The translations under genes and the position numbers were made by a program. DNA of 64,000 nucleotides from Bolinopsis microptera (Eukaryota > Ctenophora > Tentaculata > Lobata > Bolinopsidae): positions 4,071,096-4,135,095 of the forward strand of contig NC_087080.1 in the NCBI RefSeq assembly GCF_026151205.1, given 5' to 3'. A model generated the notes under the pieces. The model was not told the DNA's origin. It worked only from the letters and a program-made list of their open reading frames with translations, and searched no databases. Numbering within the stretch: the first letter of the stretch is position 1; every line of letters begins with the position of its first letter. This document shows positions 1,220 through 56,200 of this stretch, one piece after another.

Positions 1220-2039
1220 TAATGGACGATAGTTTAGTCAAACTAAACTGGTTATCTGAGACATAATAATTTCGCAATGAAAGCTCCGATTATAAGATTA
1301 CAAGAATGCCTCTGTAGTTAACTCGCCAGTCCAAACGCTCCTATTCTGGACTAAAAATGTTTTTCATGAGAGCTAAATACCTCCTCTACTGCAGACTAAA
1401 CAGCTCTATTCAAAAAGTATCACCCCTCCAGATGAATAGTCCTCAATGCCAGCTCGTTGCTTTTAGCCATTATAAGGCTTAGCAGATCAACACAGGTTAT
1501 TACCTCCTCAGACCTTAACAAGCTTGGATGATAATTTAGTGAAACTCAACTGATGATCTTAAACATCATTCTTTCTCAATGATTATTAATATTCGTTCAT
1601 ATAAGCTGACATTGAGGACTATTCATCTGGAGGAATGACACGATTTGAAGAGAGCTATTTAGTCTGCAGTAGATTGAGTATATCTCCTGTTAAATACTGT
1701 TCACGACGCCTAAACACTATTGTTTTGATACTTATATGTATATCGTCTCAATTTATACTATATATATAGTAAGAATAAGATGGTTTACGGTATTTTTGTA
1801 TTTCTCTCAATCACTTTCGATAAGACACAATGGAAATTCTTACTTCCATAAGATTCGGAATTTGTTTTAACGCTGAAGAATATTGGAATTTTATAAAATC
1901 TAACAGTTTTTACAAAAAAACAACGAATCGTATCAAAGTCCATCAGCAGTTTGTTCCAGAGTAGGGATCAGAGCAAAACGAAGGAACATAATTTCTTGCG
2001 GGAATCATTCCTGAAATATTGTCGACAAGTTAAAATCTA
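1220..2039. repeat. Foldback and duplicated segment between two Helitrons
   Basis: Two arms, about 1386-1449 and 1611-1672, are inverted copies of each other; both contain the core CTCCAGATGAATAGTCCTCA or its complement. A second pair, from about 1222 and 1527, is a diverged direct repeat of some 45 bases. Near 1740-1780 there is another Helitron-like 5' end on the minus strand (GAGACGATATA preceded by a variant TCTTATTCTTACTATA). Its 3' end was not located. No gene is visible. Confidence 0.55.
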
Positions 2040-2345
2040 CTAGCAGGAACCCGTCTAACCCTTGAGTGGTGTCAAGACTCAAGAGACTAAATAAATGATT
2101 ACCTATTTAATTCGCGTTTTTGACACCACTTGGGGGTCCAAATTTTGGGCACTAAAATTTTTATTTCTTGGCCAATTTTTTATTTTTTTCATGCTGATTT
2201 GAATGCCATTAAGACATAAGACCCAGTCAAAAAAGTTTCAGTTTTATATCTTTTACGGTTTTTGCGGAAAATCGTGTTAAATTTGATACCGTGGTGTCAG
2301 TAAAATGGTACGGATATATATCGTCTTGCTTTATATATAGTAAGA
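2040..2345 (-). mobile_element. Non-autonomous Helitron-like element
   Basis: A 306-bp element on the minus strand runs from TC (2345) to CTAG (2040). The flanking bases are A before TC and T after CTAG. It shows the family consensus throughout: TCTTACTATATATAAAGC at the 5' end and GGGTTCCTGCTAG at the 3' end. No target-site duplication is present, as expected for Helitrons. I could not find the short hairpin usually seen just before CTRR. A 9-bp inverted pair (TGGTGTCAA / TTGACACCA) lies near the 3' end instead. Confidence 0.75.
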
Positions 2346-2439
2346 TTGCACTTCCGTCACTTGGGTGTGGGATATAAAGCATATGGTTGTTAAAGGCCTA
2401 AATAATACTATATTCACTTATATGGCTAATGTTTAGTCA

Positions 2440-3203
2440 TCTTACTATTTATAAAGCGAGACGATATATATATACATACAGGGTTGCCCATAAGTGACTA
2501 CCCACACGCAACCTCTTAATAACTCACGTAATTCGTCTCCAAATTGCACCAAAATTTCAGAGATTATAGATATGGGTCAAACTTAGATTTCCTGAAAGTT
2601 TCGTAAGCCACGCCCAATTACAGTGGGCGTGGCGTGACACTCCCTCTTTTTCACTATTGTCTTCATAAAATGAGAACGCTTTAAGCTAAGAACTCAAAAT
2701 TTTTTGCACACATTTGGCTTGATAATTGAAAACCTTTCCCAAAGTTTCAAGTTCATTGGTTAAAATATGGCTAAGTTATGACCATTTCAAAACTCATCAG
2801 ATACGTGATCCGAGCACTCAGTCAGTGATCTCGTCACTTGGTTAATGGCCTGTTTGGCTCACATGCACCGCTTGATTGGTTGCAGCCTGCTTTTCCTGAA
2901 AAGGTCACGATCTGGTGTGTATATATTTATCCGTGCCATTTTACTGACACCACGGCATCAACTTTAACGCGAATTTCTGCAAAAACCGTCAAAGATATAC
3001 AACTGAAACTTTTTTGACTGGGTCAAATGCTTTAATGGCCTCCAAATCAGCATGAAAAAATAAAAAATTGGCCAAGAAATAGGAGTTTTAGAGCCCAAAA
3101 TTTGGTACCACAAGTGGTGTCAAAAACGCGAATTAAATAGGTAATAATTGTTTTAGTCTCTTGAGTCTTGACACCATTTTAGGGTTAGACGGGTTCCTGC
3201 TAG
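2440..3203 (+). mobile_element. Helitron-like element carrying a nested repeat
   Basis: A 764-bp member of the same family, TCTTACTATTTATAAAGC at the 5' end and CTAG at 3200-3203. Its excess length over the usual about 309 bp comes from an internal segment (about 2479-2930) that includes a dispersed repeat also seen at 17337. The target shows as GTTTAGTCA before the element and TATTTAT after it. The next 28 bases contain an uninterrupted copy of the same junction (GTTTAGTCATATTTA near 3224-3238). That supports insertion between A and T without target duplication. Confidence 0.8.
2479..2795 (+). repeat. Dispersed repeat nested in Helitron, mariner-like start
   Basis: It begins CAGGGTTGCCCATAAG directly after a TA dinucleotide and is about 320 bases long. 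A diverged copy lies at 17337-17650, beginning CAGGGTGGCCCAGAAG. The CAGGGTGNCC start after TA resembles termini of Tc1/mariner-like elements. No matching inverted end was found at the other side, so the class is uncertain. It has no open reading frame of note. Confidence 0.6.
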
Positions 3204-3352
3204 TATTTATAATATGGCTAATGTTTAGTCATATTTAATATGTGATCTGAAATTAAATTAAGCTACAGACGTTTTTGTAACGTAACAAGAAATTATGGTT
3301 GAGCTAACACAAATTGTGTTAGGAAATACAGTATATCTGATCTATTGTACCT

Positions 3353-3514
3353 TTACTTCTTCTGCTTTTTCTTTTGCTGTCTGTGCTCTGCGACAGCAAT
3401 TTGTTGCCCAGACTTCCTATCCTCCCCTACCACCTTCTTACCACAGGTTGACATGAGAGCCACTTGCCTCTCAACGGCTTGGTTGTTGTTAAAAAATGTC
3501 GTTTTGAGAGGCAT
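3353..3514 (-). other. 53-codon lysine-rich ORF repeated in each array unit
   Basis: Each 918-bp unit carries, on the minus strand, an ATG-to-TAA frame of 53 codons (copies at 3353-3514, 4270-4431, 5188-5349, 6106-6267). It ends in a basic tail, HRQQKKKQKK, preceded by GEDRKSGQQIAVAE. The composition looks more like the end of a real coding exon than random AT-rich sequence. I do not recognise the protein. It could be a host exon fragment swept into the repeat, or chance. There is no evidence of expression. Confidence 0.3.
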
Positions 3515-3811
3515 TCTTATATACCTTACTCGGGAATATTATAGCGGGTTAATTTATGAATGGGAAAATTAATGACCGGGAAAAATATGGCGGACTTTCC
3601 CAAAACCCGCCAAATTATCCCGGTCATGTATTTACCGGTGGCCGACCTTTCAAGTTTTTTTTCAGAGGTCAACAAATTTTCAACCGAAATTTCTGTTTTT
3701 GTTACTTGTTAAAGAAGTTATTTCAATTTACAGTTATTGATATTACTCAGAAATAGAAAAAAAAGACACGTCTATTTAAAGGAAAATAAATCTAAGCAAT
3801 AATAAGTCAAA

Positions 3812-4120
3812 TCTTACTATATATAAAGCGAGACGATATATATGGTTCCGTGCCATTTTACTGACACCATGGCATCAACTTTAACGCGACTTTCCGCAAA
3901 AACCGTCAAAGATATACAACTGAAACTTTTTTGACTGGGTCAAATGCTTTAATGGCCTCCAAATCAGCATGAAAAAATAAAAAATTGGCCAAGAAATAGG
4001 AGTTTTAGAGCCCAAAATTTGGTACCACAAGTGGTGTCAAAAACGCGAATTAAATAGGTAATAATTGTTTTAGTCTCTTGAGTCTTGACACCATTTTAGG
4101 GTTAGACGGGTTCCTGCTAG
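3812..4120 (+). mobile_element. Helitron-like element, array copy 1
   Basis: A 309-bp element between A (3811) and T (4121), starting TCTTACTATATATAAAGC and ending GGGTTCCTGCTAG. Its 5' portion, through TTTCC at 3891-3895, matches the right-boundary element (6566). From CAAAG at 3907 onward it matches the left-boundary element (2440). It therefore looks like a recombinant of the two. Confidence 0.8.
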
Positions 4121-4729
4121 TATTTATAATATGGCTAATGTTTAGTCATATTTAATATGTGATCTGAAATTAAATTAAGCTACAGACGTTTTTGTAACGT
4201 AACAAGAAATTATGGTTGAGCTAACACAAATTGTGTTAGGAAATACAGTATATCTGATCTATTGTACCTTTACTTCTTCTGCTTTTTCTTTTGCTGTCTG
4301 TGCTCTGCGACAGCAATTTGTTGCCCAGACTTCCTATCCTCCCCTACCACCTTCTTACCACAGGTTGACATGAGAGCCACTTGCCTCTCAACGGCTTGGT
4401 TGTTGTTAAAAAATGTCGTTTTGAGAGGCATTCTTATATACCTTACTCGGGAATATTATAGCGGGTTAATTTATGAATGGGAAAATTAATGACCGGGAAA
4501 AATATGGCGGACTTTCCCAAAACCCGCCAAATTATCCCGGTCATGTATTTACCGGTGGCCGACCTTTCAAGTTTTTTTTTCAGAGGTCAACAAATTTTCA
4601 ACCGAAATTTCTGTTTTTGTTACTTGTTAAAGAAGTTATTTCAATTTACAGTTATTGATATTACTCAGAAATAGAAAAAAAAGACACGTCTATTTAAAGG
4701 AAAATAAATCTAAGCAATAATAAGTCAAA

Positions 4730-5038
4730 TCTTACTATATATAAAGCGAGACGATATATATGGTTCCGTGCCATTTTACTGACACCATGGCATCAACTTT
4801 AACGCGACTTTCCGCAAAAACCGTCAAAGATATACAACTGAAACTTTTTTGACTGGGTCAAATGCTTTAATGGCCTCCAAATCAGCATGAAAAAATAAAA
4901 AATTGGCCAAGAAATAGGAGTTTTAGAGCCCAAAATTTGGTACCACAAGTGGTGTCAAAAACGCGAATTAAATAGGTAATAATTGTTTTAGTCTCTTGAG
5001 TCTTGACACCATTTTAGGGTTAGACGGGTTCCTGCTAG
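4730..5038 (+). mobile_element. Helitron-like element, array copy 2
   Basis: This copy is 309 bp and indistinguishable by eye from the element at 3812-4120, one 918-bp period downstream, with the same A|TC...CTAG|T borders and the same chimeric structure. Confidence 0.8.
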
Positions 5039-5647
5039 TATTTATAATATGGCTAATGTTTAGTCATATTTAATATGTGATCTGAAATTAAATTAAGCTA
5101 CAGACGTTTTTGTAACGTAACAAGAAATTATGGTTGAGCTAACACAAATTGTGTTAGGAAATACAGTATATCTGATCTATTGTACCTTTACTTCTTCTGC
5201 TTTTTCTTTTGCTGTCTGTGCTCTGCGACAGCAATTTGTTGCCCAGACTTCCTATCCTCCCCTACCACCTTCTTACCACAGGTTGACATGAGAGCCACTT
5301 GCCTCTCAACGGCTTGGTTGTTGTTAAAAAATGTCGTTTTGAGAGGCATTCTTATATACCTTACTCGGGAATATTATAGCGGGTTAATTTATGAATGGGA
5401 AAATTAATGACCGGGAAAAATATGGCGGACTTTCCCAAAACCCGCCAAATTATCCCGGTCATGTATTTACCGGTGGCCGACCTTTCAAGTTTTTTTTTCA
5501 GAGGTCAACAAATTTTCAACCGAAATTTCTGTTTTTGTTACTTGTTAAAGAAGTTATTTCAATTTACAGTTATTGATATTACTCAGAAATAGAAAAAAAA
5601 GACACGTCTATTTAAAGGAAAATAAATCTAAGCAATAATAAGTCAAA

Positions 5648-5956
5648 TCTTACTATATATAAAGCGAGACGATATATATGGTTCCGTGCCATTTTACTGA
5701 CACCATGGCATCAACTTTAACGCGACTTTCCGCAAAAACCGTCAAAGATATACAACTGAAACTTTTTTGACTGGGTCAAATGCTTTAATGGCCTCCAAAT
5801 CAGCATGAAAAAATAAAAAATTGGCCAAGAAATAGGAGTTTTAGAGCCCAAAATTTGGTACCACAAGTGGTGTCAAAAACGCGAATTAAATAGGTAATAA
5901 TTGTTTTAGTCTCTTGAGTCTTGACACCATTTTAGGGTTAGACGGGTTCCTGCTAG
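5648..5956 (+). mobile_element. Helitron-like element, array copy 3
   Basis: This copy is 309 bp and again indistinguishable by eye from the two preceding copies, with the same termini and flanking A and T. Confidence 0.8.
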
Positions 5957-6565
5957 TATTTATAATATGGCTAATGTTTAGTCATATTTAATATGTGATC
6001 TGAAATTAAATTAAGCTACAGACGTTTTTGTAACGTAACAAGAAATTATGGTTGAGCTAACACAAATTGTGTTAGGAAATACAGTATATCTGATCTATTG
6101 TACCTTTACTTCTTCTGCTTTTTCTTTTGCTGTCTGTGCTCTGCGACAGCAATTTGTTGCCCAGACTTCCTATCCTCCCCTACCACCTTCTTACCACAGG
6201 TTGACATGAGAGCCACTTGCCTCTCAACGGCTTGGTTGTTGTTAAAAAATGTCGTTTTGAGAGGCATTCTTATATACCTTACTCGGGAATATTATAGCGG
6301 GTTAATTTATGAATGGGAAAATTAATGACCGGGAAAAATATGGCGGACTTTCCCAAAACCCGCCAAATTATCCCGGTCATGTATTTACCGGTGGCCGACC
6401 TTTCAAGTTTTTTTTTCAGAGGTCAACAAATTTTCAACCGAAATTTCTGTTTTTGTTACTTGTTAAAGAAGTTATTTCAATTTACAGTTATTGATATTAC
6501 TCAGAAATAGAAAAAAAAGACACGTCTATTTAAAGGAAAATAAATCTAAGCAATAATAAGTCAAA

Positions 6566-6876
6566 TCTTACTATATATAAAGCGAGACGATATATATGGT
6601 TCCGTGCCATTTTACTGACACCATGGCATCAACTTTAACGCGACTTTCCGCAAAAACCGTAAAAGATATACAACTGAAACTTTTTTGACTGGGTCAAATG
6701 CTTTAATGGCCTTCAAATCAGCATGAAAAAGTAAAAAATTGGCCAAGGAATAAGAATTTTAGTGCCCAAAATTTGGACTCCCAAGTGGTGCCAAAAACGC
6801 AAATTAAATAGGTAATAATTATTTTAGTCTCTGATCGAGTCTTGACACCACTTTAGGGTAGACGGGTTCCTGCTAG
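6566..6876 (+). mobile_element. Helitron-like element, right boundary of array
   Basis: A 311-bp element between A and T. Its first about 95 bases are identical to the array copies. From AAAAG at 6661 the sequence diverges by many substitutions (for example GGACTCCCAAGTGGTGCC instead of GGTACCACAAGTGGTGTC). It is followed by unique sequence, so it is the original right-hand element rather than another array unit. Confidence 0.8.
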
Positions 6877-6882
6877 TCTTCA

Positions 6883-7194
6883 TTAAAGCGTATTCTCATT
6901 CTCATTATCGCTAATGTCCCCTCCATTATCATTATTGATATCCTCCTGCTGCTGACCGTCAAATTCGAAGTTGTATTGTTGTCTTAACAAGACTTTCATT
7001 TTTTCCGCTAATGGGGCTACTGCTCTGAAGGTCAGCCGGAGCTTAATTTCCTGCCCACCGCTTGGTATTGGGGAACGTCTTAGCTTTGCATCTTCAACTG
7101 CTCCAGTAATTAATCCACCGTGGACCATGAAATAGTGGCACAGTTTACTCACTTCTAGCGGGATGTGGCCACAAGTTGGCCTGAAATCTGATTT
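6883..7194 (-). pseudogene. HIRAN-like domain fragment with acidic tail
   Basis: This is a minus-strand open frame of 103 codons that opens directly after a possible splice acceptor (TTATAG) and has no obvious upstream exon. The N-terminal part reads CGHIPLEVSKLCHYFMVHGG, followed by RRSPIPSGGQEIKLRLTF. I recall this GH(I/V)P...GG...RSP...GG.EI.C pattern from HIRAN-like domains that are abundant in cnidarian and sponge gene predictions; that match is from memory. The tail (EDINNDNGGDISDNENENTL) is acidic. It lies immediately beyond the Helitron array. It is likely the last exon of a broken or partial gene. If real, the function is unknown. Confidence 0.4.
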
Positions 7195-9577
7195 CTATAA
7201 CCAAATCTATAACCAAATTTCTATAACCAAATTGTGATTTTTATACCGAAATTATGGTAGCAACCGCCAATAAAGTTACAGCCCTCCATCCACTGCTTCA
7301 AAAGTCTTCTCTAGCACATATGAGACTTCAGGTAAAATATGATGATCACCACCCCCTTGAAACCCCATAATCTGAGTCGGCGGGTTTTTTTTATGACTGG
7401 TAAAATTTTTGACCGGGAAAAATATGGCGGAATCTTCCAAAACCCACCACTTTATCCCGGTTATAATATTCCCGAGTAAGGTATGAGATAATAGCGGCTC
7501 TCGTCAGACCATGTAGCAAGGGGGGTAGGGTTACCAAAGCATACTCCTTCTTTGCTGAGGATAATTGTGTTATTTTGTATTTACATCATGTACTGAGAGT
7601 CGAGACTGAAGCAACTATAACTTAACTCGAACACATTAGTCCTAGTTTAATATGTTCAATAAATGATTGATTAAGCTTGGTAACATTTGACATAAATTAT
7701 GGTATCTTTGATAATAATTATTATTAATATTACCAACTCCCGTCTTGTACCACCATCCACAAGAATCCTCCTTGTAGATGGGGAGCTCGGTGAACTTCCT
7801 TGTGGTCATGTTCTAGTCTGGCTTGTAAAAAACCCTCATACGTCGGGAGGGTGGCACCTTCTCCTCCCAGTCAAGGATTTTCAGGCAATCGGCCACATCC
7901 TCCCTCCGCACATCTTGTTCATCATCGGCTGAAATTCATCATCCAATCAAATTTAAAAGATTTCGTAGAAATGAATAATATGCTTATTGTTCTAAATTTC
8001 ATAGCTGCACGATTCCCAAATACATAAACTAATAAAGTGCGTAGGACACAATGACAAAATGAAAATCTGATGGTTATAATTATACAATATTATATATGTT
8101 TTTGTATATAATATATAAGTTTCATGAATATTTTAAAGAATACCGGTGTTATAATTAACTGACAATATGATTATAGAGATTTACATTGTGAATTTCACAA
8201 AGAATAGAGTCCGATTTTATGCTTTTAGTTTTATGTTATTGGTGGGATACATTATGAAACTTTTATGAAACATCATTTAAAGGCTGTGCTATGGTGTTAA
8301 ATAAATACCTAGTTTAGCCAGAATGACAGATTCAGGGTGCCCGAAATAGCTGTTATGACATACACTACTTCACGCTCCTTCCGGGTCAGTTGTATCTCAG
8401 TGGCAATTGCAGGTGTTTGAACAGGTGCACAGCACCATGCTCCTAACCAGGCTGTAACTTCACATCCGCATGAACCTGATATCATAATCATCAATGCATC
8501 TTTAACCATAATGATATTGATAACCAGAAGTAAAGAAAAACAAAGCATTTTTAGGGGGGGGGGGGGGGGCCAATGGATATTTTTTTGTGAAACTTGATTT
8601 CGAGATAGCAGTTGACCAACAAACTAGGACCAGTGACCGAACTTTTGAGGGGTTCCCGGACCCAGGGGCCAGGGGTGTAGGAAGAGGGGGGGGGGGGGCA
8701 GGGGGGTGACCGCCCCCCCCCCCCATAAAATCTGGAAAAGGGGCCAACTTTTGGCTCATTTGGCCTATCCTGTCTAACTGCAGTCTAACTGCACGATAGT
8801 TGCCGATTTATAAAATTCAGAAAACATTGCTAGTTACTCTTCTGTACCGTGTTCAGTATCTTCAAGTAAATTAGCAGGATACAATCCAGCTGTGAGGGAT
8901 GATGATTAATCACTCTATACTCGACTGTCACGTGACTTTTTAAACATGTTCTGATGGTGGCCCTGAATGACTATTCGAAATCATAGCCCTCTAATCTGAT
9001 CCCAACCCTAACCCTAACCCAAGATAACATTACTGATTATTCTTTTTTGCCGTTGGAGTAAATTAGGAGGACACAGTTTGCCCTTGGCCTTGTAGTCCAA
9101 ATTTACATTACCTCATTGCTAGAATGCATTCCTTAAAACAAATTTTCCAAGAATTCTTCCAATTTCTCCCTCCTTGCATGTTGTACCCTTTTTGAGAGTA
9201 AGACCTATTCTCTCTCTCTCTCTCTGTTCTGGTCAACGGTTTCTGGCCTCTTACGTTAAGATGGAGGCCTTCTCACCGTGCCCACAGAATGCAACTCCTG
9301 CTAGCTGCACGCCAGGACTCCCAAAGTATATACGAAATCATAAAATAATAAATATCAATGCAACAGACCCCTGGAGTCTTGAAGCTGTCACTACCTGTCT
9401 CAGAGCAAACCCACTTCCGTTGTAGTACTTCTGCGGGCAGACAAGGGACTTCCGAGCAAGGTCAAAGCCTGGGAGATATGTCTCTATGCAGAGATGGGCC
9501 TAGGTTGCGTTCCTAGTATGGGATTTAGCGAAAGTTCCTGGCGAAGAATCCTAGGAGGTTACCCAAAAGGGTTTTCC
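7195..9577. other. Gene-poor repeats and low-complexity sequence
   Basis: At 7195-7232 the unit ATAACCAAAT is repeated. 7390-7485 shares GACCGGGAAAAATATGGCGG with the array spacers and ends in ATATTCCCGAGTAAGGTAT, the reverse complement of a spacer segment. On the minus strand, 7816-7930 reads DVADCLKILDWEEKVPPS before a stop, a possible exon scrap. Long G tracts lie near 8553 and 8688. 8897-9025 is a dispersed repeat ending in telomere-like CCCTAACCCTAACCC; its partner is at 45229. A CT microsatellite lies near 9211. No gene is supported. Confidence 0.5.
8897..9025 (+). repeat. Dispersed repeat with telomere-like end, copy 1
   Basis: It begins GGATGATGATTAATCACTCT and runs through a CGACTGTCACGTGACTTTTT segment to CCCAACCCTAACCCTAACCC. 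The second copy at 45229-45350 is co-linear, with scattered differences. Short remnants of the telomere motif terminate both. Confidence 0.7.
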
Positions 9578-30100: not shown

Positions 30101-30892
30101 CCCATCACCCACATACTAGACCCATCACCCACAAGCTATACCCATCACTCACATACTAGACCCATCACCCACATTTTAGACCCACCACTCACATGCTAGA
30201 CCCATCACCCACATGCTAGACCCATCACCCACGTTCTAGACCCATCACCCACATACTAGACTCATCACTCACATACTAGACCCATCACTCACATTCTAGA
30301 CCCATCACTCACATTCTAGACCTATCACTCACATACTAGACCCATCACTCACATACTAGACCCATCACTCACATACTAGACCCATCACTCACATACTAGA
30401 CCCATCACCCACATACTAGACCCATCACCTACATTCTAGACCCATCACCCACATTCTAGACCCATCACCCACGTTCTAGACCTATCACCCACATACTAGA
30501 CCCATCACCCACTTTCTAGACCCATCACCCACTTTCTAGACCCATCACCCACGTTCTAGACCTATCACCCACATACTAGACCCATCACCCACTTTCTAGA
30601 CCCATCACCCACTTTCTAGACCCATCACCCACATTCTAGACCCATAACCCACATACTAGACCCATCACCCACATGCTAGACCCATCACTCACATACTAGA
30701 CCCATCACTCACATACTAGACCCATCACTCACATACTAGACCCATCACTCACATTCTAGACCCATCACTCACATTCTAGACCCATCACTCACATACTAGA
30801 CCCATCACTCACATACTAGACCCATCACCCACATACTAGACCCATCACCCACATACTAGACCCATCACTCACATACTAGACCTATCACACAG
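30101..30892 (+). repeat. 20-bp minisatellite, about 40 copies
   Basis: The unit CCCATCACYCACATACTAGA repeats in register with no indels through almost the whole block. Variants fall into a few types (ACATAC, ACATTC, ACTTTC, ACGTTC, ACATGC). Blocks of variants recur as higher-order units; for example an 80-bp block starting CCTATCACCC at 30481 is repeated at 30561. No ORF function is implied. Confidence 0.95.
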
Positions 30893-50296: not shown

Positions 50297-53200
50297 AAAA
50301 TCTCCTTGAAGGTGATGATCTCCCTAGTGGCACTAGCAGGAGCGTTAGGAAACCTCCTGATCGCCGCTGTAGTCCTCACTTTTCGACGGTGGAGGGTCCC
50401 TACCAACATCTTCCTCTGCAATGTGGCCGTAGCTGATCTTATCATATGTCTCTGGACTCTCCCCCTAATGATTGCTAGTATTAATAAAGGATGGTAAGAA
50501 TGTGTAAACCTTTCAGTTTATTCATGTTACAAAATTTGTAAAATCTAGTTTTGCTTTAAATTTGGAAACATTATGACCATTTCTACATCACTTTTTGACA
50601 TCATGGCTCAATATTCAAACTGGTATTCTTATTGGTTATCAAAAAGTTTGGTTGCTACTACATAGTACATACTAGCATTCTAAACCTAATCTGATATTTT
50701 ACCTGTAGGTGGCCGCTGCCTATCTGGTTGTGTTCTCTGGGTGGATTTCTTGACAATGCATCCTACGTGTGTTCGGCTTGGTCTCTTGCTTTCGGTAAGT
50801 TGGTACTTAACCGTGTCGCTGACTTTGGGAAGTATGATTATGAGTTTACAATAAAACTTATAATCACACACATAAAGTTATGATATATCATTTTCCTGCC
50901 GATATCGAATGGCTTAGAATTTTGTATTAAGTTAACGTAAAACGCTCAAGTTCAAGTTTAACTTCAACACATGATAACATTTATTGTAAATGAGTTCACC
51001 GCACTGACCTTTCAACGAGTTATTACCATGTTGACACATGCTGACACGTGCAGTCGCGGTGCACGCGCGTTACTCTTGATCCTGATATCCCGTGCAGGAT
51101 CTTTGGAGAGGTTCTACCTGGTGCTATCTCGAGGAAAGAACAGAGAGACTATGAGCTATTCTGTTGCCATCCTCTTCTGTGGCAGTATCTGGATATTCAG
51201 TATTATTCTTGCGGCTCTTCCTGTGCTAGGTTGGTCAATTAACTTTTGATATGCTTCGTTAATTTCCGGTAAAAATATTGAATAATTCACTATCCTATCA
51301 ACCTGATGCAGGAAACGACCGGTTTGGTTCGGGTTTCGGCTGTTGTTGACCGACTGGGTTTGGTTCCAGTTCGGCAAACTTTTTACCGCACCTTTCTTCA
51401 ATTCCAAGGAATGAAAACTGCAGTAATATGCTATCCTGGGCTTTAAAGTCCTCTTTTCTACACTGCAGAACACATTTCTACACAATAAAAATGTGAAAGT
51501 ACCGCGTTTTAATATTACAATACGGGGAAATTTCAGTGGAATGTTCTAGAACGCTCACACGCGTGTCAATTCAGCCACATATACAAGCCTATAATAATAA
51601 GCCCTGATATAAGCCTATTAGTCTATAATCACTGGCTGCAAATATGTTCAAAAAGTACGGGTCGGGTTCGGCAAAAAATTCCTGATTTGGTCGTTTCCTA
51701 ATCTGATGATAAACAATATTTTATTATTAACCTTAGATTCATTATCCAAATTATTAATTCTTCATCTGCATGTTTTAATCTTCATCCCCTTTTAATTATT
51801 TCCGAATTCCCACGCCAGGTTGGAACAGATACGTGTACAGTCCCCTGACCTTCAGCTGTGCTATTAATGGGTTTATGAAGGGGATACACAAATATTACTT
51901 CATCACTTTTCTAATTCTTGTCCTGCCAGGTATTGTGTGGTTCATCGACAAATCCTTGTTAGCTCTGTAAAGCTTAAAATGAATTGTCTACGCTCTCTGT
52001 ATTTTTTTAAAGAATGATACCAAAAATAAGAACATCGCATTTTTTTCCTTTTCTGAAACATTGAGGTCACACTTTATTTTCAGGACCACTACTGATAATT
52101 TTATTCAACTACTCCTATGTTTTCATCTTTATAGCGTAAGTTATTTTACCATATCAATCCCAAAGTGATGCCTTTTTATCATTGCTTGATGGAGCTTCAT
52201 TTCTTTTTTCTGAACGTCAAAAAAGTACCATCATAACCACCCAACAGATAAAAAATGCTAAAAGTCTGCTTTCAGGAGACTACCAAAACGAAACGCGGTA
52301 GAACGAAACAACCATCTTAAAGTGGTTATACCACTTGTTTTAATAACTGTAAGTTAATTTCGACGAACGATGTTTCTTAAAAACTTCTGGATAGTGATTG
52401 TGATAATGATAATATAATGATAAGCGAATATATTTTTTATACAACACCGGCAAAAAGTTGAATTATTAAGATGCAACTTTTACACTCAGCCATAATCATC
52501 GAAATCATCATAACTTGGTCTTATGAACCTCATAAAAACATATCCTTGTCCCATTACGCCACTGACCAGTATTAGATTATAAACTAATATAAATATTAGT
52601 AGCGTAATAATTTTTAATCACAATAACTGGAACAATGAAAGACAAAAAGTAAAGTAAAGCTAGCACAACACATATTGATGTGGAGAGTCAGGGCACACCT
52701 TCAAAATATGTTAAATATTTAGCAGCAGACTAATCACAGATAGACTGTATTCCTTAATTAATAAAGAAAGGTTTGGTCTGGTGTTGTAATAAAGCTTACT
52801 TTTACAACTATTGTTGTCCAGGCGTGCTGCTCAACAGTCAACCCTGATTTCAGCCCATAAACTGGACAAATATCAATTTTTTGAATGAGACTAACTTAAT
52901 AATATGAAAGGTAAACAATATATTCTCTGTGATATGTAGGATAATGTTTATCGAGACGTTGAAACTACGGGTATATGCCTCACAGAATGGCTAGCCTCAC
53001 AGAATGGCCAAATTTGTAAATGTTTTTGTAACTAATTTTTTATATAAGACTGGTAGGTTTTGTGGATACCATATGAAACAAAAGTCTTCTGGCAACACTT
53101 CCTGTGGTGAAATCATTAACTAGGACCACATTTTCTGGCATAAATATGACTGTTTATGTAGAAATTTTGAGCACTGAAAATTTGTTTTCAAATTTTTGAA

Positions 53201-56200
53201 CTAAGTTTACATTTTGGTGAGAACTTCTGGCACCAGTATGACAGAAGATGTTTAAAGAATAGTATTCATCAAACAAAACGAACATTGTTCAATATAGGAA
53301 GAAAAAATGCTAAAATGGCTACACGCCTCACAAAATGGCCAAAATATGCCTCACAAAATTTGTTTTCAAATTTGTGAACTAAGTTTGCATTTTGGTGAGA
53401 ACTTCTGGCACCAGTATGACAGAAGATGTTTAAAGAGTAGTATTCATCAAACAAAACGAACATTGTTCAATATAAGAAGAAAAAAATGCTAAAATGGCTA
53501 CACGCCTCACAAAATGGCCAAAATATGCCTCACAAAATTTGTTTTCAAATTTGTGAACTAAGTTTGCATTTTGGTGAGAACTTCTGGCACCAGTATGACA
53601 GAAGATGTTTAAAGAATAGTATTCATCAAACAAAACGAACATTGTTCAATATAGGAAGAAAAAAATGCTAAAATGGCTAAACGCCTCACAAAATGGCCAA
53701 AATATGCCTCACAAAATGGCCAAAATTTAAAACTCCTTTTATTCAATGAAACAATAAGTCTAAAGTATTCACAAGCTATTTATCATACAATAACACCCCA
53801 GATGGAGTGTTTTTACAGCCGAATGAAGGTTATAAATCATGAAATCAGGGAATATGAACAACGCCACACAAAATGGCCATTTTTAGTGTAGGAAATTATG
53901 CCCTTTTTATTCAGTTCTAAGAAATTTCACCTATATGGGGGTGTTAACAAGGCATATTTATACCAGCAGCATGCCTGAAACAAGAGCCAAAGGTTTTAGA
54001 AAAATAAAATTTTCTCTTTTTCATTTTTTTTGGCCATTTTGTGAGGCATTTTTTCTTTTTTGTGAAATAATTTTTCACAGCTCAGTTTTTTCGTGAGTTT
54101 TAGGTTATTACCCCATTCCTTAATAGGTTTTCTAACAACGTGTGGTGATAGAAATTTAAAAAGTATCTCCATCAAAAAATTATAGAAATTCAGATTTGGC
54201 CATTCTGTGAGGCATGTTTTTTTGGAGGAAGATTTTCCGGCCAATTTTTCTCAAAGAAAAAATGGTTATGAGATTAAATCAACCCCCGGGAAGAAAAATA
54301 TGAGTGTCAACTTAGCTTCTTATGAGATAAAAACTGGGATAAAGTGTGTTTTGTGATTTTGAGAGAACTTCCTTTTTTTGGCCATTCTGTGAGGCATATA
54401 CCCGTAAGGCAATTAGACCACCAAAATTAACAAAATCTCGTAGGTGTCTTCACTCAAAAACCTAATTCTTCTACATTTTTCAATATTTTCCAATTATAAA
54501 ACACTAGCAGGAACCCGTCTAACCCTAAAGTGGTGTCAAGACTCAAGAGACTAAAATAATTATTACCTATTTAATTCGCGTTTTTGACACCACTTAGGGG
54601 TCCAAATTTTGGGCTCTAAAACTCCTATTTCTTGGCCAATTTTTTATTTCTTCATGCTGATTTGAAGGCCATTAAAGCATTTGACCCAGTCAAAAAAGTT
54701 TCAGTTGTATATCTTTTACGGTTTTTGCGGAAAGTCGTGTTAAAGTTGATGCCGTGGTGTCAGTAAAATGGCACAGATAAATATATATATATCGTCTCGC
54801 TTTATATATAGTAAGATGAGCATAGCTCACTTTTTGCTTACAATTTCTTGAATTACAGATAAAAATTAAGTTCTACGACAATTGAATTGAATCACAAGTG
54901 TTTCCCTATTTAAAACATAATCATAATGTTCATACTTCATATTATGAAGTGAGCTGAGTAGAGCTTGTAGAATTGTAGTGAATGGAAATCTAGCGTCCGT
55001 CACAACAAAACAACGGGCGCAATTCTTGTAAATTTCGCCCTTCAAAAAATTGGGCGGCAAAATTTCGAAATTTTCCGGACAGAATTCAGACTTTGTCCGT
55101 CAAATAGTGAACTCGTATAGTTTGCAGTTGTGGTGGTGTATGGACATGTGAACGTACCTTATCGGACCTTATTTGGACGGACATTACATGAACGGACATA
55201 ATTGTGAACGGACATTAATATGAACGCTCGAAGGCATTCAAAACCATAAAAAATCCGAATTTTTTTCAATTTTTTGACTTTTTTTAAATTTCAGCAAATG
55301 ATTTTTTAATCCATTTTTCATACAGTAAGTAAGAAAAGCAGTCATTATGATTAAGCAGTAAAAATGTTAAAATATGTGTACATGATCAGTGTCTAATATC
55401 GGGTGGGCGACAATTGACCCCCCGACAATTGACCCCCCGACAATATAATTTATTACAATTAACCCTGACCCTGACCCTGACCCTGACCCTGACCCTGACC
55501 CTGACCCTGACCCTGACCCTGACCCTGACCCTGACCCTGACCCTGACCCTGACCCTGACCCTGACCCTGACCCTGACCCTGACCCTGACCCTGACCCTGA
55601 CCCTGACCCTGACCCTGACCCTGACCCTAATCCTGACCCTAACCCTAACCCTGACCCAGGATCCTGACCAAGGACCCTGACCCTAACCCGATCGATTGAC
55701 CCCAGTTTAATTACATGGGGGGTCAATTGTCGGGGGGTCAATTGTCGTACTAAACCCTAGATTTCGCGACAATTGACCCCAGTGTAATTACAATTTACAT
55801 ATGGGTCAATTGTCGGGGGGTCAATTGTCGGGGGGTCAATTGTCGCGGTACCCTAATATCACATATCATCTTCATTAAATGGGTTTTCGTGCATGAAATA
55901 GTCCATGCTTAAACAAGCATCAGTGATTTCTAGCTTTATGGAAATCTTTTTTTATCAAACTACCCCGGTCCTGCATTTCATTGTTAACTTTTACAAGCCA
56001 TTCGGCGTGAAGTGGTTTTATCTTAGACAACTTTAGGTTAACCTTAACATCACGTAGAGCTTTCCTAGCACTGTTTCATTACCTCCCCTCAGTAATATGA
56101 ACTATAACAACGTCGGACAATGTCCTTGGCAACACGATTTACCGTAATATCTAGAGGCTGGAACAAGTTTGTCATTTTGGCGGGGACTAACTCATGAACT

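Follow-up and report, generated by a model that had tools for sequence, protein, structure and literature searches.

Chimeric Helitrons in a short tandem array of Bolinopsis microptera and their probable origin from two separate insertions

In the genome of the ctenophore Bolinopsis microptera, five Helitrons in the same direction alternate with four spacers (window positions 2440–6876), and this arrangement raises the question of how Helitron and spacer came to be repeated together. The window is the whole 64,000-nucleotide stretch that was analysed (C9:4071096–4135095); it contains no N and lies on a 17.4-Mb contig of a 264.65-Mb assembly of 232 contigs. From left to right, the Helitrons are named L, C1, C2, C3 and R. 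A preliminary description of this DNA had attributed the array to unequal crossing-over between L and R. Its coordinates for the five elements were correct, with the 5′ ends (TCTTAC) at 2440, 3812, 4730, 5648 and 6566 and the 3′ ends (CTAG) at 3203, 4120, 5038, 5956 and 6876. All five had an A directly before and a T directly after them. We consider an out-of-register exchange between L and R, followed by growth to four spacers, to be the origin of the array with a probability of about 0.9.

Chimeric copies, junctions and empty sites

Helitrons L and R were 91.7% identical over 289 aligned bp. They differed in 33 diagnostic columns, in which neighbouring changed bases and indel columns were each counted singly, the number of independent events being lower than 33. 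C1, C2 and C3 were identical to each other. In the base-by-base comparison of the five elements, each of these three internal copies carried 13 R-type columns followed by 20 L-type columns, with the single switch that the preliminary description had claimed. Up to and including the tract GCAAAAACCGT, C1 agreed with R at 95 of 95 bases; from the first base of that tract onwards, it agreed with L at 225 of 225. The alignment thereby placed the switch exactly where it had been put before, at 3896–3906 in C1, which is 84–94 bp inside the element and at homologous positions of L and R. In C1 coordinates, R had private changes at site 4037 and, in the form of an inserted TGA, after 4077; they lay in its 3′ part and were missing from the chimeras. 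The four spacers differed solely in a poly-T run, with eight T in the first (T8) and nine in the others (T9). Since no base substitutions were found between units or between the chimeras and their parents, the array appears to be young or recently homogenised.

The R-then-L pattern was absent from 54 full-length matches elsewhere (49 of them distinct), taken from the best 40 matches per search after 10 of 64 matches that lacked an end had been dropped. A 23-mer spanning the switch occurred four times in the assembly, three times in the array and once on contig C13. The C13 carrier was a short, internally deleted Helitron and not a copy of the chimera. A pre-existing chimeric subfamily was rejected on these grounds. 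R-like copies with 98–99% identity were present on many contigs, and L-type sequence with approximately 98% identity was present in one element on contig C8. L and R were already unlike each other before the exchange. A Helitron on contig C12 (L084), 97% alike, contained two inverted copies of the repeat of an element D where L contained one. Element D has inverted repeats of approximately 360 bp, and its position inside the C12 Helitron was that of the single repeat in L.

The DNA on either side of the Helitrons changed together with the sequence type. The insertion junction on the left of R, leading from an element B into the Helitron, was found four times in the assembly (C1, C2, C3 and R) and not at L. 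The insertion junction on the right of L was also found four times (L, C1, C2 and C3) and not at R. Every chimera therefore bears the left neighbour of R and the right neighbour of L. A misaligned exchange between L and R yields this combination, which would not result if only the elements themselves had undergone gene conversion.

The array lies in a host repeat C, the spacer segment of which had 41 matches in the genome. Two paralogs of repeat C (L017 and L018) continued through the interruptions, matching the window at approximately 1921–2037, 2345–2440, 3233–3523 and from 7482 onwards. The empty sites of L and of an inverted neighbouring Helitron, U, agreed with insertion at A/T (the slash marks the cut), though neighbouring paralog bases differed; at the L site there was some divergence and a short extra duplication alongside. 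Element B was inserted in repeat C with a TA duplication and inverted ends, and it may be a Tc1/mariner-like transposon. The R site was uninterrupted in copies of B elsewhere (L052, L054, L007 and L008), where the empty site was clean, and no target site duplication was seen. From the empty sites it follows that L and B entered repeat C separately, that R entered B, and that the stretch from L to R was multiplied only later. L and R are separate insertions.

Origin of the array

In the proposed sequence of events, a copy of repeat C would have received L and B separately, and R would have inserted into B in the same direction as L, at a distance of 608–609 bp. R on one chromatid (or homolog) would then have paired with L on another, and non-allelic homologous recombination would have produced L-S-(R/L chimera)-S-R, where S is the spacer. 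The two identical spacers could have led, by further unequal exchange over long identical units, to an array with three chimeras and four spacers. In such growth, the product of two arrays with n and m spacers has at most n + m − 1, so that one to four spacers takes at least three exchanges, the first included. We infer a crossover for the exchange and repeated unequal exchange for the growth. The exchange between the elements at 2440 and 6566 that had been proposed earlier is supported by the single switch, the spacers identical except for one T, the flanks and the independent empty sites. The further statement that a single unequal exchange yields the array holds for its seeding, which gives one chimera, but not for the growth from two to four spacers, which takes two more exchanges or another form of amplification. 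The transposon pair had also been described as seeding a new satellite-like array, and this was not borne out. Among the places scored, none outside this array held the full 921-base query from end to end. A satellite forms a long array of many units or is present at many loci, and the four copies at this single locus do not amount to one.

Several observations weigh against the exchange between L and R. The switch tract of 11 bp accounts for 4.3% of the bases that are identical within the shared block, and it adjoins a 51-bp identical tract, in which classical homologous exchange is more often expected. A tract this short beside the longer one is a mild hint of template switching or mismatch correction. 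The C at 3907 was also found on an R-like background (contig C13), so that the right limit of the interval depends on one site, and setting this site aside extends the interval to 3896–3958. The T8/T9 difference may be a sequencing error. Furthermore, the array is known from one assembly of one individual, and its copy number rests on that assembly. The 11-bp limit is probably correct, because all 17 R-type relatives compared had R's base at the 3907 site. The interval is the place where the sequence type changes, and mismatch repair could have shifted it from the physical crossover.

The short tract would suit a break-induced or microhomology-mediated event in which replication changed its template from R to L and the spacer was copied again, with no crossover, and on contig C8 of the same genome a 6-bp microhomology event produced a perfect 1043-bp tandem duplication. 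However, the switch in the array fell at homologous positions within the aligned block of L and R, where homology-driven exchange needs no added assumption, and we regard template switching as unlikely. We give a similarly low chance to a route through a circle, in which an intrachromatid exchange between L and R would excise the spacer with an R/L chimera and a concatemer would recombine into L-S-R, giving four spacers at once. Exactly the observed junctions are predicted by this route, and one-step growth fits the near-perfect identity of the units, but it requires excision, copying and reinsertion, for which the sequence gives no call. The confinement of T8 to spacer 1 is neutral in this respect. 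An assembly artefact, with a real locus of L-S-R or L-S-C-S-R, is considerably less probable than either. The units are almost perfect copies and the assembly is the sole evidence on copy number, but the gapless window lies within a long contig, the three extra units cover only approximately 2.75 kb, and the junction sequences occurred on no other contig, except for the unrelated 23-mer on C13.

Least credible of all is the production of the tandem copies by rolling-circle Helitron transposition. Circles and tandem arrays have been reported for Helitrons in the parts of PMC5876387 and PMC12628747 that cover them. Here, the position of the breakpoint, well inside the element and not at Helitron ends, contradicts such an origin; in addition, other DNA of spacer length separates the copies, and both ends are kept in all five elements. 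Two other histories were discarded. L and R are not the edge copies of an old, homogenised and later decayed array, as an empty site exists for each of them and their matches elsewhere belong to different sequence types. An independent insertion of three Helitrons into an existing spacer array is ruled out by their shared site and identical sequence.

The duplication on contig C8 (C8:14309034–14311125; L063:2035–4126) contains two Helitrons per unit and has TAATCT microhomology at its junction. Like the array, it is a recent perfect direct duplication with Helitrons. Its junction lies outside the Helitrons, whereas the switch in the array lies inside them, and it was rejected as a second array of like origin.

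The exchange between L and R can be compared with systems treated in sections of PMC12628747 and PMC9659126. In these sections, the transposon dimer is presented as a substrate of unequal exchange (McGurk and Barbash 2018). They also cover satellites that arose when transposons underwent unequal crossing-over with each other (Wong and Choo), and tandem duplications from recombining paralogous copies (Zattera and Bruschi 2022 is among the works cited). As in the arrays described there, two direct copies formed the homologous substrate, the DNA between them was multiplied, and chimeric copies resulted. The pair in those arrays is usually a one-site dimer or shares long terminal repeats, whereas L and R are separate Helitron insertions, and the unit here is mostly spacer built of two other repeats. 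Plant rolling-circle Helitron arrays (Xiong et al. 2016, as summarised in a section of PMC12628747) also consist of tandem copies containing Helitron ends. In contrast to the array here, with both ends in all five elements and an internal breakpoint, they have many 5′ ends and one 3′ end. Oyster Helitron/Helentron elements, according to passages of PMC7492417 and PMC12628747, are likewise tied to tandem repeats; there the array is inside the element, whereas at this locus the element itself belongs to the repeated unit. Among the open-licence papers listed, no account of a Helitron pair with just this structure was noticed.

The kind of event is thus already known, and the array is a new, unusually readable example of it. 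Its founding insertions have empty-site paralogs, both parents of the chimeras are preserved alongside them, and the switch can be confined to 11 bp. The accepted picture of how tandem repeats are born is unchanged. The locus provides a worked example of a transposon pair that started a tandem repeat, and it is suited to a population test of stepwise growth.

The Helitron family and its target

Among the 49 distinct family copies kept after matches lacking an end had been dropped, all 49 started with TC after an A, and 48 ended with CTAG before a T. A TC start, a CTRR end and insertion between A and T are characteristic of Helitrons, and the five elements of the array, which share them, are taken as non-autonomous. 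A hairpin of 16–20 bp before the 3′ end was not found in the R and C1 ends at a quality better than in shuffled sequences (z +0.9 to +1.2). For the bat Helitron, a passage of PMC4778049 reports that transposition was lower, but not abolished, once the palindrome had been deleted. Helitron protein coding was present in the genome, with 41 matches to PF14214. One element (L087) encoded Helitron_like_N and PIF1 domains in a frame of 1466 residues. Approximately 550 bp downstream of this frame, a hairpin was followed by GGTACCCTGCTAG/T, close to the GGGTTCCTGCTAG/T of the Helitrons here; a 5′ end matching these Helitrons was looked for in L087 and not found. The L087 protein may mobilise the family of the array. 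Three PF14214 matches on contig C11 (3834408, 3846209 and 3856595) had equal scores and equal 1759-aa frames and were located on one strand, 10–12 kb apart. They are possibly a tandem array of autonomous Helitrons.

The target was analysed in 47 insertions with distinct flanks, obtained from those of the 49 copies that ended in CTAGT after equal flanks were merged (loci L006, L022–L049, L063–L082 and L085; each search scored approximately the best 40 matches). The bases after the cut followed A/TANNNNTAA. TAA was present at +6 to +8 in 32 of the 47 insertions, against a background of 442 of 14340 AT sites (3.1%), counted in the sequence flanking these loci, and 44 insertions had A at +8. It is well supported that the family recognises the extended target A/TANNNNTAA 3′ of the cut. 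For the bat Helitron, a preference for AT with an AT-rich flank, strongest on the 3′ side, is reported in part of PMC4778049, and for a wheat Helitron family the target AT is given in part of PMC13286980. The running text on these Helitrons in those parts of both papers, figure logos aside, does not mention a gapped target motif. Because targets are usually given only as AT or AT-rich in such accounts, the extended target may serve more generally.

From its base 7 (TATATATAAAG), the family's own 5′ end matches the part of the motif after the cut; the base before it is C and not A. One candidate reading, in which the own 5′ end carries the motif at an A/T site and junction counts prove self-insertion, failed, as the A/T site of the standard 5′ end TCTTACTATATATAAAG (47 of 49 copies) does not agree with the motif. 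Head-to-tail pairs were common in the genome. The junction CTAG/TATATATAAAGCGAGACG, leading from a Helitron into the next 5′ end, occurred 13 times exactly and 20 times with at most one mismatch, compared with 0 for the reversed control. For 5 of the 13 exact right junctions, an exact left junction A/TCTTACTA was present within 1.2 kb, as if the Helitron had inserted into the downstream element. In these five pairs, the downstream element started 2 bp before the position that a clean insertion would give. Seventeen other loci had an exact left junction. Five of them ran into a Helitron 5′ end (L098 cleanly, four with 1–3 extra bp), five ended in other DNA, and seven were without an element end in the stretch examined. 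On its own, the left pattern thus gives no evidence of self-insertion. Self-insertion of the family is possible. L and R are not a self-insertion pair. It is doubtful that Helitron 5′ ends are favoured as targets and so supply direct pairs that unequal exchange could turn into arrays.

Across the head-to-tail loci (L089–L093, L094, L098, L101, L104 and L108), the right junction was mostly TATATATAAAG or had 1–3 extra bases, and it was clean in L098. A doubling of the first 8 bases (TCTTACTATCTTACTA) without a second Helitron seen at the other end was observed among L094–L110 (e.g., L102, L107 and L109).

Coordinates and other features of the window

The features of the array and its surroundings are listed in Table 1.

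Table 1. Positions of the Helitrons, spacers and host elements in the window.
Feature	Positions	Strand	Basis
Helitron L, left parent, with approximately 450 bp of element D inside	2440–3203	+	A/TC...CTAG/T ends; empty site in paralogs L017 and L018
Element D remnant inside L, one terminal repeat	2470–2917 (limits approximate)	+	Genome copies in inverted pairs; C12 Helitron (L084)
Chimeric Helitron C1, R-type 5′ part and L-type 3′ part	3812–4120	+	Diagnostic columns; alignment to L and R
Chimeric Helitron C2, same sequence as C1	4730–5038	+	Sequence identity
Chimeric Helitron C3, same sequence as C1	5648–5956	+	Sequence identity
Helitron R, right parent, inserted in element B	6566–6876	+	Ends; B copies elsewhere uninterrupted at R site
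Switch interval GCAAAAACCGT	3896–3906 (C1); 4814–4824 (C2); 5732–5742 (C3)	+	L/R diagnostic columns
Spacer 1, 608 bp, poly-T run of 8	3204–3811	+	
Spacer 2, 609 bp, poly-T run of 9	4121–4729	+	
Spacer 3, identical to spacer 2	5039–5647	+	
Spacer 4, identical to spacer 2	5957–6565	+	
Transposon B, left part	3524–3811, once in each of four spacers	+	Inverted ends CCTTACTCGGG; TA duplication
Transposon B, right part, single copy, right of R	6877–7481	+	
Helitron U, inverted, outside the exchange	2040–2345	-	
Host repeat C, recipient of U, L and B	1921–8441 (own parts 1921–2039, 2346–2439, 3204–3523 and 7482–8441)	.	Paralogs L017 and L018

A gene in the spacer was considered and rejected, as neither a 53-residue frame nor two other frames of repeat C matched Pfam at E 0.1, and an Rfam scan of the window gave zero matches at the gathering score. 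A partial Helitron of the same family was located on the minus strand upstream of U (1015–1220). The window also contained other tandem arrays, at 30101–30888 (a 20-bp unit repeated 39 times), 53177–53717 (a 179-bp unit, three times) and 55462–55689 (the 6-bp unit ACCCTG, 38 times).

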